A stretch of DNA of 24,598 nucleotides from a virus. The stretch's first letter is position 1. Every line of letters starts with the position of its first letter. Shown piece by piece: positions 189 to 3,608 of this stretch. Under the pieces are notes generated by a model. It was not told where the DNA came from. It did not search any database and saw only the letters and a list, made by a program, of their open reading frames with translations. The stretch lies in IMG/VR virus record IMGVR_UViG_3300042400_000660, positions 1 through 24,598 of that record. One strand, given 5' to 3'. The position numbers were made by a program, and so were the translations under genes.

Positions 189-635
189 ATGACGCTCACC
201 GACGCCATCCTCGCCACGCTGCACGACATCAAGCAGGCGCGCCCGCTTGACCAGGTGCCCACGCTCACGATCGATGAGAGTGCGAGGTATATTGGCGTCT
301 CGGTTTCGCAGTTTCGGGAGTTGGCCGCCATCAACGGCCTGCACCCGCGCAAGATCATGGGCCGCATGATGTACAACCGCAGCCACATTGACAGGTACTT
401 GGAGGCACAATGGCAGGCCACAGAAAACGCCGCGCACCCAACGGGCGCGAATATTGGGAACTCACATGGCGCGAGGCCGGGCAGACGCGCACCCAAAGCC
501 TCGGGCCGGTCGCCCGACTCCGTGAAGCCGAAGTGCGAGAAATCGCTAGACGCAAAGATCGTGAACTTGCGCTTGCCAGCCACAACCCCATCAAGCAGGA
601 GCACAGCTTCGCCGATTGGTGCAGGCACTACCTAG
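189..635 (+). CDS. Excisionase-like helix-turn-helix protein
   Basis: The ORF encodes 148 aa if it starts at the ATG at 189. In-frame ATGs also exist at 111, 138 and 159, and none has a clear Shine-Dalgarno, so the start is uncertain. Residues about 27-75 look like a MerR/Xis-type winged helix-turn-helix: LTIDESARYIGVSVSQFREL, then a basic wing and a YNRSHIDRYLEAQ segment, as in excisionases and recombination directionality factors. Location directly before the integrase supports a role in excision or integrase control. The ORF continues 226 nt into the integrase gene in another frame. The tail after about residue 80 is rich in Pro, Ser and Arg and reads like an out-of-frame shadow of the integrase. 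The integrase lies in the -1 frame relative to this gene, but I see no canonical slippery heptamer. Confidence 0.5.
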   Translation: MTLTDAILATLHDIKQARPLDQVPTLTIDESARYIGVSVSQFRELAAINGLHPRKIMGRMMYNRSHIDRYLEAQWQATENAAHPTGANIGNSHGARPGRRAPKASGRSPDSVKPKCEKSLDAKIVNLRLPATTPSSRSTASPIGAGTT

Positions 636-1441
636 AGTGGCACGGTGCCGAGTACCCGCATTCGCACGTCCGTGTGGCGCAGATTGTCGAGCAGCACTTG
701 CTAGAGCACTTCACCGGCACGCTTGAAGGCATTTCGCAGATTGATGTGGAGCGTTACAAATTTGCGCGCACCGATGCAGGGGCCGCACCAGGCACCGTCA
801 CCAAAGAAATGCGCACGCTCAAAGCCATGCTGAACCGCGCTGTCGCACTTGGCTTGCTGGCACGCAGCCCGGCACAGTTGGTCAAAACCCCACGCAGCCT
901 AGACAACAAAAAAGGTTTCACGTATTTCACTGCGGATGAGCTGCAAACAATCTACCAAGATGGCTGCGTCGAAGATTGGCACCGCTGGGCGTGGCAGCTA
1001 TATGCCAGCACCGGCGCGCGGCTGCAGGAGCTGCTAAACCTCAAATGGGCAGACGTCGGCACCAACACCCTGCACCTGATCAGCACCGGCGAGGAACGCA
1101 CCAAGTCAGGCGAAGGCCGCGACGTGCCTTTAATGGCCAGCGCCACCGAGGCTCTGGCATTCTTTCGCACATGGGAACACAAGAGCGATCTCTACGTCCT
1201 GCCGCGTGTGTATCGCACCAGCCTCTCACGCATCGCGGCGCGGTGCATCCGCCGCGCAAAGCTCAAGGGCAGCTTGCACACGTTTCGCCATACGTTCGCC
1301 AGCAACCTTGCGCTGGATCCGCGCATACCGATTTCAGCAATCAAAGAGTGGATGGGCCACTCAACCATTCGCGTGACCGAGCAATACATGCACCTGCGCG
1401 AAGGTGTCAGCAGTGAGATTTTGAGAGGGATGCGGCTGTGA
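410..1441 (+). CDS. int: Tyrosine site-specific recombinase (phage integrase)
   Basis: This 343-aa integrase would catalyse attP x attB recombination. An N-terminal arm-binding region (about 1-55, basic, beta-type) is followed by a core-binding SAM-like domain (about 63-155) and the catalytic domain (about 172-343). The active-site set is complete: R204 in STGARLQELL, K232, H290 and R293 in HTFRHTF, H317 in MGHS, and nucleophile Y326 in EQYMHL. The ATG at 410 is supported by GGAGG at 401-405. The gene begins inside the helix-turn-helix ORF, and its TGA overlaps the GTG of the next small membrane gene. Its 3' end faces the tRNA-Glu core at 1815-1862, the same orientation as int and attP in lambda, so that core is its likely substrate. 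Confidence 0.96.
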   Translation: MAGHRKRRAPNGREYWELTWREAGQTRTQSLGPVARLREAEVREIARRKDRELALASHNPIKQEHSFADWCRHYLEWHGAEYPHSHVRVAQIVEQHLLEHFTGTLEGISQIDVERYKFARTDAGAAPGTVTKEMRTLKAMLNRAVALGLLARSPAQLVKTPRSLDNKKGFTYFTADELQTIYQDGCVEDWHRWAWQLYASTGARLQELLNLKWADVGTNTLHLISTGEERTKSGEGRDVPLMASATEALAFFRTWEHKSDLYVLPRVYRTSLSRIAARCIRRAKLKGSLHTFRHTFASNLALDPRIPISAIKEWMGHSTIRVTEQYMHLREGVSSEILRGMRL

Positions 1442-1796: not shown

Positions 1797-1814
1797 GAAT
1801 TTACTACTAATTGC

Positions 1815-1862
1815 TGGCGTCCCCACGGGGATTCGAACCCCGGTTACCGCCGTGAAAGGGCG
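1815..1862 (-). other. attP: attP core: 3' part of tRNA-Glu(UUC)
   Basis: Read on the - strand these 48 nt are the anticodon arm (loop CTTTCAC, anticodon TTC), variable region, T arm with GGTTCGAATCC, 3' acceptor strand and encoded CCA of a tRNA-Glu. Similarity stops abruptly at 1863, so the D arm and 5' acceptor strand are absent and this is not a functional tRNA gene. Phages that integrate in tRNA genes carry exactly this 3' segment so that the target is restored. Arm-type repeats at 1703-1725 and 1897-1915 sit on both sides, which favours intact attP over a hybrid attL/attR junction. Confidence 0.85.
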
Positions 1863-1896
1863 ATCCAGCACTCTATAAATCAGGCACTTACGACAG

Positions 1897-2210: not shown

Positions 2211-2270
2211 AAAATATTTTTAGTTTATTTGCAAAAATCGCTTGACTTGTTCGCAAAACGCGAACACAAT
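2210..2270 (+). promoter_or_regulatory. Promoter of the acr-aca2-like operon with nested operator
   Basis: A -35 TTGACT (2242-2247) and a weaker -10 CACAAT (2265-2270) are 17 bp apart. AT-rich DNA upstream, including AAAAATATTTTT at 2210-2221, could act as an UP element. The spacer is filled by the perfect inverted repeat TGTTCGC-AAAAC-GCGAACA (2248-2266), placed so that a bound dimer would block RNA polymerase. Aca regulators are known to repress their own acr-aca operon through inverted repeats in the promoter, so the Aca2-like product of this operon is the obvious ligand. Confidence 0.75.
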
Positions 2271-2276
2271 ACATTC

Positions 2277-2301
2277 ATCGGCAGCAATCGTGCAAGCCGA
2301 T
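2277..2301 (+). promoter_or_regulatory. Leader hairpin upstream of the acr candidate start codon
   Basis: ATCGGC (2277-2282) pairs with GCCGAT (2296-2301). GC (2284-2285) and GC (2292-2293) can extend the stem past a small internal loop, leaving a six-base loop. The hairpin would be transcribed from the promoter at 2242-2270 and ends 6 nt before the Shine-Dalgarno AGGAG (2308-2312). Aca2 of other phages also represses translation by binding mRNA stem-loops, so this is a candidate RNA target. The alternative is a simple leader structure without a ligand. Confidence 0.45.
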
Positions 2302-2318
2302 ACCTCTAGGAGATGAAC

Positions 2319-2573
2319 ATGAACCAAGCCAAAGCAGTCGCCAATTTTGAATCTATCGCAGCCGCGCTGTACGACGAAGCCCCATCTGACAAAGCTCGCG
2401 CTTTTGCCAAGAAGATTGCAGATGCGATTCGCTCAAAAGGTGCCGAGTGGATCGCCGCCAACGAGTTCGCGCTGCACATCACCTTCAGCGCTGCTGAACA
2501 AGAAGACACCTGCCCTGTTGAAAACAATCGCTTGTGGTACATCGCCGAATGGCAGATCGCATTGAGCAAATAA
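2319..2573 (+). CDS. Unrecognised small protein, anti-CRISPR candidate
   Basis: The ORF encodes 84 aa from the ATG at 2319. An in-frame ATG at 2313 abuts the Shine-Dalgarno AGGAG (2308-2312) and is too close, whereas 2319 is 6 nt away. The product is mildly acidic (12 D/E against 9 K/R). It looks like an alpha-helical N-terminal half (about 1-45) followed by a beta-type half with HITFSAAEQ and LWYIAEWQIAL. There is no signal peptide, membrane segment or known motif, and it does not match the AcrIF sequences I can recall. The call rests on context: it is the first gene of a two-gene operon, with an Aca2-like regulator 2 nt downstream and an operator in the promoter. This is the layout by which many Acr proteins were found. 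Other early-expressed inhibitors or a non-Acr function remain possible. Confidence 0.6.
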   Translation: MNQAKAVANFESIAAALYDEAPSDKARAFAKKIADAIRSKGAEWIAANEFALHITFSAAEQEDTCPVENNRLWYIAEWQIALSK

Positions 2574-2575
2574 TC

Positions 2576-3037
2576 ATGACCGCCACCGAACTGCAAGCGC
2601 TCCGGCGCTTGCTTTTTTTCACGCAGCAAGAGGCGGCCTCGATGGTCTCAGGCACCAGCCATCGCGCGTGGCAACACTGGGAGGACGGCAAACGCGCCGT
2701 ACCCGCCGACGTCGTTGAACGCATGCGGGAACTGGCTGACTGGCGCGAGCGCGCGATCGACGCGATGCTTGACGCGATCCAAGACAACATCGACGCTCAC
2801 GACGGGCAGAAGCCGGAATCTATACCGTTGGTCTGGTATTTCAATGCCGCCGATTGGAACAGCGGCGCAATCTTGTGGCGGCCACATCAATCAGCGTGCG
2901 CGGCCATGTTGGCGCTCAACGACCGCGTGCGTCTGGTGCCGTTTGACAGCGCGGCTTATGCCGCATGGCTTGGCAAACGCGCCGATTCTAGCCCTCAACG
3001 CGCCGCGTGGGCGGCTACCATACCACCGCCGGGCTGA
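2576..3037 (+). CDS. Aca2-like helix-turn-helix autorepressor
   Basis: The protein has 153 aa from the ATG at 2576, 2 nt after the stop of the candidate acr gene, so translation is probably coupled. An upstream in-frame ATG at 2534 lies inside that gene and is not needed. Residues 4-50 form the helix-turn-helix, with LRRLLFFTQQEAASMV, then SHRAWQHWEDGKRAVP, close to the SARSWQYWESGRSAVP segment I recall for phage ZF40 Aca2. The C-terminal half has LVWYFNAADW and LWRPHQSACAAMLALN, parallel to the WRLSQSVAAL region of the same family. The last 20 or so residues are an extension. Known Aca2 proteins repress their acr-aca operon. Housekeeping YdiL/DUF1870 relatives exist, so family membership alone does not prove an Acr partner. 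The 3' end overlaps the Rz gene on the other strand by 23 nt. Confidence 0.75.
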   Translation: MTATELQALRRLLFFTQQEAASMVSGTSHRAWQHWEDGKRAVPADVVERMRELADWRERAIDAMLDAIQDNIDAHDGQKPESIPLVWYFNAADWNSGAILWRPHQSACAAMLALNDRVRLVPFDSAAYAAWLGKRADSSPQRAAWAATIPPPG

Positions 3038-3608
3038 TCGCGGGCGCGGGCGCTCCGCAAACCCGCTGATATTCAAGGATCACGGCTTGGGCGGCGTCGA
3101 GCTGCTTGACGATGGCGTTGGCGTCGTTGGCGAGGTCGAGAAGATTTGCAGCAGTCGGTCTCGAAAGTTCGCTTCCCGTTTCACCATCACGTCCGCCGGC
3201 GGCGGCGAGAGCGTCACGGGCGCCGGGCAGCTTTCGGCAAGTGTCTTGCCCGCTGGTGGAAAAGGGGTCGAACAGCCGGAGGCCACCGCGCTGCACAGAA
3301 TCACGATCAGCAGCTTTTTGGGCTTGCACATTTTTCAGCTCCGTTTGGTAGTAGGTTGAAACGTCAGCAATCACTTTGGCGCTTTGCCGTTCTGTGGCGC
3401 GGTTGGCTGCGTTGGCTTTGTTCAGTTCAGCCTGCCATTCGGCCTTGGCCGTCGCCATCTTGGCTTGCCAGTGTTCACGCTCGGCCTGCACGCCGGTATC
3501 ACGTATCCACCACACGGCAGCGGCGAATGCGGCCACCACAGCAAAAGCGGCGGCGATGCGCCACAGCGGGAATGCCACATCAAGCCACATGCGGAGTGCC
3601 GTGATCAC
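3015..3608 (-). CDS. Rz: Rz-like inner-membrane spanin (i-spanin)
   Basis: The product has 197 aa, longer than lambda Rz (about 150). One N-terminal transmembrane segment (about residues 16-34, rich in Ala, Val and Phe) is followed by a periplasmic, helical, Ala/Lys/Glu-rich stretch (about 40-100) likely to form a coiled coil. With its outer-membrane partner it would fuse the two membranes in the last step of lysis. It starts with a GTG at 3608 overlapping the TGA of the DUF5675 gene. A complete Rz1-type lipoprotein gene lies inside it in the +1 frame, the lambda arrangement, which makes the call firm despite low expected sequence similarity. It is the last gene of the late region and ends 23 nt inside the convergent Aca2-like gene; no terminator is visible between them. 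Confidence 0.88.
   Translation of the reverse strand: MITALRMWLDVAFPLWRIAAAFAVVAAFAAAVWWIRDTGVQAEREHWQAKMATAKAEWQAELNKANAANRATERQSAKVIADVSTYYQTELKNVQAQKAADRDSVQRGGLRLFDPFSTSGQDTCRKLPGARDALAAAGGRDGETGSELSRPTAANLLDLANDANAIVKQLDAAQAVILEYQRVCGAPAPAISPAVVW
3080..3331 (-). CDS. Rz1: Rz1-like outer-membrane lipoprotein spanin (o-spanin), nested in Rz
   Basis: This 83-aa ORF lies entirely within the Rz gene in the +1 frame. It has a lipoprotein signal, MCKPKKLLIVILCSAVASGC, with the lipobox ASGC and acylated Cys at residue 20. The mature part is proline rich (PFPPAG, SPPPAD, and TPTPSSSSSTPPKP at the end), a hallmark of o-spanins. The ATG at 3331 has GGAG about 7 nt upstream. It should pair with the Rz product through their periplasmic parts. 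Confidence 0.88.
   Translation of the reverse strand: MCKPKKLLIVILCSAVASGCSTPFPPAGKTLAESCPAPVTLSPPPADVMVKREANFRDRLLQIFSTSPTTPTPSSSSSTPPKP

Follow-up and report, generated by a model that had tools for sequence, protein, structure and literature searches.

Background

In described Aca2 promoters a first inverted repeat, IR1, overlaps promoter elements and is tightly bound, and R30 is the key DNA-binding residue of the protein (PMC8434428). A second repeat, IR2, is dispensable for transcriptional repression (PMC8434428, PMC9410906). Aca2 of Oceanimonas smirnovii is an example of the family (PMC9410906), and inverted repeats have been described close to the promoters of the Aca2-like regulators YdiL (E. 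coli/Salmonella) and SO3848 themselves (PMC8434428). YdiL and SO3848 belong to the same Pfam family as the protein studied here, but they are chromosomal and stand alone or beside another partner; a scan of the ydiL locus (L048) gave no TTCG dyad with leader hairpin.

We compared these systems with an operon in the virus record IMGVR_UViG_3300042400_000660, whose 24,598 nt, the whole stretch analysed, are called the window below (Table 1). The acrIF8-aca2 operon of the Pectobacterium phage ZF40 (JQ177065) resembles it in gene order, in its Aca2-family regulator and in the 7-bp arms of a dyad in the core promoter. The ZF40 leader likewise carries a hairpin with an A-U-N-G loop and a repeat at the ribosome-binding site, and both acr-aca operons lie beside lysis genes and integrase. 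The two differ in that the regulators share 36% identity, the 7-bp arms are 5 nt apart in the window and 4 nt apart in ZF40, the -10 element is CACAAT instead of TATAAT, the cassette gene is unrelated to AcrIF8, and ZF40 lacks the terminator-like hairpin that the window has in aca. The locus L145, whose Aca2 is the crystallised 7ezy sequence, shares the regulator family and has the promoter dyad TGTTCG...CGAACT (TGTTCGCAATTGCGAACT) with a leader hairpin GATTCGAG-ATTGG-CTCGAATC, but it has a 6-bp operator centre and another cassette gene.

From these comparisons we consider it highly probable that the dyad in the window is an IR1-type transcriptional operator through which an acr-aca2-type operon regulates itself. 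In all likelihood the locus is a gene switch of a known type, anti-defence in function and self-limiting, with a few unusual details, and what had been a bare palindrome thereby becomes a complete, testable regulatory module.

Table 1. Features of the operon and its surroundings (positions in the window)
Feature	Position	Strand	Basis
tRNA 3' part, anticodon loop TTC (by eye, Glu); probably the core of attP	1813-1864	-	52 nt identical in L038
-35 element TTGACT	2242-2247	+	sequence, sigma-70 scan, retention in relatives
Probable operator dyad TGTTCGC-AAAAC-GCGAACA, IR1-type	2248-2266	.	sequence; identical arms in ZF40 acrIF8-aca2 promoter
-10 element CACAAT	2265-2270	+	sigma-70 scan; first 2 bases common to dyad
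5'UTR hairpin ATCGGC-A-GCA-AUCG-UGC-AA-GCCGAU	2277-2301	+	comparative folding, pattern scan
Inverted repeat CTC-TAG-GAG incl. Shine-Dalgarno AGGAG (2308-2312)	2304-2312	+	sequence; kept in relatives
Cassette gene, 84 aa, candidate anti-CRISPR or other anti-defence	2319-2573	+	ORF; replaced in relatives
Aca2-type regulator, 153 aa; R30 and Q33 in the HTH	2576-3037	+	Pfam, PDB matches, alignments
Terminator-like stem GCAAGCGC-TCCG-GCGCTTGC + T7	2593-2619	+	sequence, conservation in clade

The promoter and its dyad

The original prediction described a perfect 19-bp inverted repeat between the -35 and -10 elements, and the letters proved exact, with two 7-bp arms and zero mismatches. The placement held in part: the repeat fills the 17-nt spacer (2248-2264), and it also runs 2 nt into the -10 element. 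Within the 24.6-kb window the exact motif is found a single time. In a sigma-70 scan the two promoter elements with their spacer gave 9 of 12 matches, and the region as a whole gave 2 hits against 0.4 in shuffled sequence. The -10 element is poor (4 of 6 consensus bases), and an A/T-rich tract lies upstream of the promoter at about 2209-2238. TTGACT or TTGAC is also present in the relatives L002, L006, L016, L036, L103, L116 and L126.

Early in infection, transcription from this promoter would yield the 84-aa cassette protein and then the Aca2-type repressor. A repressor dimer would sit with one HTH domain on each TGTTCGC half-site and shut out RNA polymerase.

The Aca2-type regulator

That the operon encodes its own HTH protein, as had been proposed, is borne out by the match of the 153-aa product to Pfam PF08965 (Aca2_YdiL; E 3.3e-22, 79.3 bits against a cut-off of 23.8). 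The match covers residues 1-115 on positions 1-113 of the 118-position profile, i.e. the HTH and dimerisation domains. The nearest solved structures by sequence are Aca2 proteins (PDB 7ezy, 8w35, 7vjo and 7b5j, E 1e-11 to 2e-12), and R30 is invariant in the Aca2-type alignment, the window protein included. The small gene is immediately followed by aca, in a phage that carries integrase and terminase. Of 369 genomes from the same class as G001, none gave a PF08965 match; since G001 was reached via a locus without known kinship to the host, this result is uninformative.

Directly after aca, on the opposite strand, lies a gene for an Rz-type lysis protein (3015-3608). In the relative L004 a further promoter, with the spacer dyad ACTATCCC-GATTGT-GGGATAGT, follows directly past aca at about 3480-3540 and is perhaps a second, separately regulated module. 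In L126/L133 (232-1039) an aca2-type gene sits upstream of a second operon that has a TTGACT-TGTTCGCATTCCCGAACT dyad and a leader hairpin of its own, and one Aca2 may here control two operons.

Dyads across Aca2-type operons

To compare operators we inspected the DNA upstream of aca in relatives collected from IMG/VR and from records of phages and plasmids; the letters of IR1 were taken from the ZF40 genome. A core-promoter dyad was found ahead of about 25 Aca2-type operons, and a matching one persists down to approximately 30-50% protein identity. The core promoter of ZF40, which serves as the reference system for Aca2, reads TGTTCGC-GATT-GCGAACA, so the comparison with a known Aca2 operator that the original prediction had called for returned the same 7-bp arms in the same place. 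The site in L002 is identical to that of the window. As in the description of IR1 given in PMC9410906, the window has an inverted repeat within the core promoter that matches other Aca2 operators, and we assign it to IR1 by our own reading of its position.

The commonest arms among the Aca2-type loci are GTTCG/CGAAC. Other arms (GTTCGG/CCGAAC, GGTCG/CGACC, CTTCG/CGAAG, GTTCT/AGAAC and CTTCC/GGAAG) are still palindromic, and compensated changes were seen as TTCGG/CCGAA in L036, GGTCG/CGACC in L013, L046 and L047, CTTCG/CGAAG in L042 and L064, TTCT/AGAA in L011, and TTCC/GGAA in L009 and L038. Across loci the recognition-helix residue 33, beside W32, tracks the fourth base of the half-site, with Q and G together in 19 loci, R and C in L009 and L038, and A and T in L011 and L012. 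This correlation, although it extends over few independent changes, links the dyad directly to the protein.

It should be noted that the available upstream sequence of the Aca2-type genes L034, L035, L136 and L153 holds no convincing dyad, hence the link between dyad and Aca2 is not universal. When genomes were scanned for the promoter together with the dyad, nine contigs came up; in the DNA available, none of them carried an Aca2 gene downstream, and these were judged to be chance or other systems.

Leader RNA

Between promoter and ribosome-binding site lies a conserved hairpin. Folded alone the window leader is not decisive, with a weak free-energy z of -0.95, and the case for the hairpin rests on comparative evidence. 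In 25 of 26 folded loci a hairpin starts 5-15 nt past the dyad (32 nt in L116). The best hairpin energy over 25 loci has a mean of -9.3 kcal/mol, against -3.9 kcal/mol in dinucleotide shuffles. An apical loop of 4-6 nt with A first and G last is present in 22 of the 25, against 16 of 500 shuffles, and the base pairs that flank the loop vary (A-U, C-G, G-C and G-U types). At the ribosome-binding site, about 20 of the 26 leaders carry CTC...GAG. An Rfam search of the region gave no family for the leader.

Scanning for the hairpin and Shine-Dalgarno pattern of the window clade, with neither operator nor protein in the query, returned 54 contigs, several of which encode Aca2 within 2.5 kb, and added three Aca2 loci (L053, L064 and L072). 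The leader signature (dyad, A...G hairpin and CTC...GAG) could serve as bait for unknown anti-defence genes without a match to any acr. In L053 (1020-1350) a 69-aa Aca2-like HTH protein follows a 62-aa small protein; the hairpin loop is AUGG and fits the pattern, though the dyad GTTCATA-AAAA-TATGAAC has another spacing. This locus was excluded from the counts.

Aca2 reportedly also binds RNA, namely the acrIF8 mRNA (Birkholz et al., Nature 2024;631:670-677). The leader hairpin and the repeat at the ribosome-binding site of the window sit where Aca2 is reported to bind that message. The hairpin, at or near the 5' end of the transcript, corresponds to the second inverted repeat in ZF40, and we propose it as the RNA element bound by Aca2. 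The repressor would then probably also bind the hairpin and the repeat at the ribosome-binding site, so that existing messages would not be translated. Judged from sequence, the operon is very probably under both DNA and RNA control.

The cassette gene and its replacement

We place the start of the cassette gene at 2319 and not at 2313, as the ATG at 2313 abuts the Shine-Dalgarno sequence and reads ATC in L002. Between the window and L002, 2168-2322 and 2576-3037 are each 97% identical and the sequence in between is unrelated. Against L004 the identities are 89% (2165-2322) and 92% (2576-3021), with three other ORFs in between. The homology blocks with both relatives stop at the cassette ATG (2322) and restart at the aca ATG (2576), so that operator, leader hairpin and aca stay constant while the intervening gene is swapped exactly from ATG to ATG.

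The 84-aa product is a candidate anti-CRISPR protein through guilt by association. The alternative that the first gene of an Aca2-type module is some other anti-defence or accessory gene comes only somewhat short of an even chance. In bacterial genomes only 3% of Aca2-like genes adjoin known acr genes (PMC9410906). The 84-aa protein has no family match in Pfam, PHROGs, NCBIfam or PADLOC and no relatives in IMG/VR or phage records, its AlphaFold model is of low confidence (pLDDT 64.5), and BLAST found no similarity among the cassette proteins, this one included. Elsewhere the cassettes encode an LPD29 domain protein (L036) and a DUF932 protein (L152), and the only recognised anti-CRISPR among those compared is AcrF8 of ZF40, our positive control. 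On the other hand, acr genes have been discovered through this very pattern, in which small, variable and unrelated genes precede a conserved aca, and the relative ZF40 has AcrIF8 in this place. The cassette gene is therefore best called a candidate anti-defence gene and not an established Acr.

The 7-bp centre of the probable operator

The centre between TTCG and CGAA measures 7 bp in the window and 6 bp in ZF40, L145 and most relatives, so the window departs from the spacing of the characterised Aca2 operators. One extra bp in the centre would set the half-sites about 1 bp further apart and rotate them by about 34 degrees. It might be argued that the operator is thereby weakened or inactive, and that the repressor acts mostly at the RNA hairpins. 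About 20 loci, those characterised in vitro among them, have the 6-bp form, and the 7-bp form was seen in five (the window, L002, L004, L072 and L152, the last with a GGATG/CATCC dyad). Against this, the longer centre arose at least 3 times independently on the protein tree, and in L004 it survives a change of the centre from AAAAC to CAAAA with the inner 6-bp arms intact, as under selection. The same difference in L004 shows that the 7-bp length is not a sequencing slip of one contig. We find a weakened operator clearly unlikely and continue to read the dyad as a functional Aca2 operator. As spacing is not given as a defining feature in the sources consulted, we count the 7-bp centre as a variant and not as an exclusion.

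No convincing alignment column separates the proteins with 7-bp operators from those with 6-bp operators. The two centre lengths, together with the link between residue 33 and the half-site base, offer straightforward ways to test DNA recognition by Aca2.

Other repressors and chance

A further alternative is that the dyad is bound chiefly by another repressor, such as a CI/Cro-type lysogeny regulator of the phage or a regulator from the host, and that the linked Aca2-type protein acts elsewhere. The layout TTGACT-TGTTCGC-N5-GCGAAC, with a 7-bp centre, indeed precedes short YdaS/Cro-like genes in the unrelated phages L015, L017 and L019 (the L017 protein has a weak YdaS match), and hence the dyad alone is no proof of Aca2. 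In addition the window record is possibly a fragment, and a CI gene could lie beyond the 24.6 kb. In L002 and L004, however, the dyad travels with aca while the cassette between them changes, matching dyads persist in more distant Aca2 operons, and the half-site varies with residue 33 of the protein linked to it. A different repressor as the main ligand is therefore very unlikely, and we hold to the Aca2-type protein. The dyad had also been put forward as independent support for the Aca assignment, and this has to be narrowed, since the dyad identifies Aca2 in combination with the leader hairpin and the linked protein, and not alone. In L015, L017 and L019 we also observed an extra half-site upstream of the layout and near-leaderless YdaS/Cro-like genes; apparently an unrelated phage regulator uses the same palindrome there.

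Perfect repeats with 7-bp arms and loops of 3-8 nt number 18 in the whole window, against 14.9 expected from a Markov model, and the repeat alone is thus not significant. To call it a clear repressor site on account of its perfect arms, as was done originally, went too far. A chance palindrome of an A/T-rich promoter is nevertheless extremely unlikely, as a perfect 7-bp dyad within a 21-nt promoter spacer has P ~0.0012 at local composition and the arms are identical to those of ZF40 and other Aca2 promoters. The operator reading is strongly backed by comparison, while the RNA elements of the leader and the 1-bp-longer centre had been overlooked.

A terminator-like hairpin within aca

The stem at 2593-2619 is perfect over 8 bp and lies within aca codons 6-15, which encode part of LQALRRLLFF. 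The window clade and L038 retain the hairpin, and in L006, L135 and L142 synonymous compensating changes replace CAA...TTG by CAG...CTG in the stem. Seven of 17 clade members have a hairpin of terminator type, where 0.7 would be expected from synonymous recoding; as the members fall into about four lineages and so do not count as independent, this conservation is no more than suggestive.

We speculate that the aca terminator forms a third layer of control in the clade by making repressor synthesis conditional on translation of acr, an idea we regard as rather doubtful. Translation of the cassette would bring coupled ribosomes into aca, where they would melt the hairpin and allow aca to be made; with the leader blocked by Aca2, the message would go untranslated and end before aca. 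If so, the terminator layer and the 1-bp-longer operator centre would together set this locus apart as a separate variant of the Aca2 switch.

A probable attachment site

The integrase of the window (410-1441) and the acr-aca operon lie on either side of the tRNA segment, which is a probable attP core. Rfam gave a sub-threshold tRNA-like match at 1818-1887. The same 52 nt occur at 2367-2418 of L038, near an integrase in a different phage.
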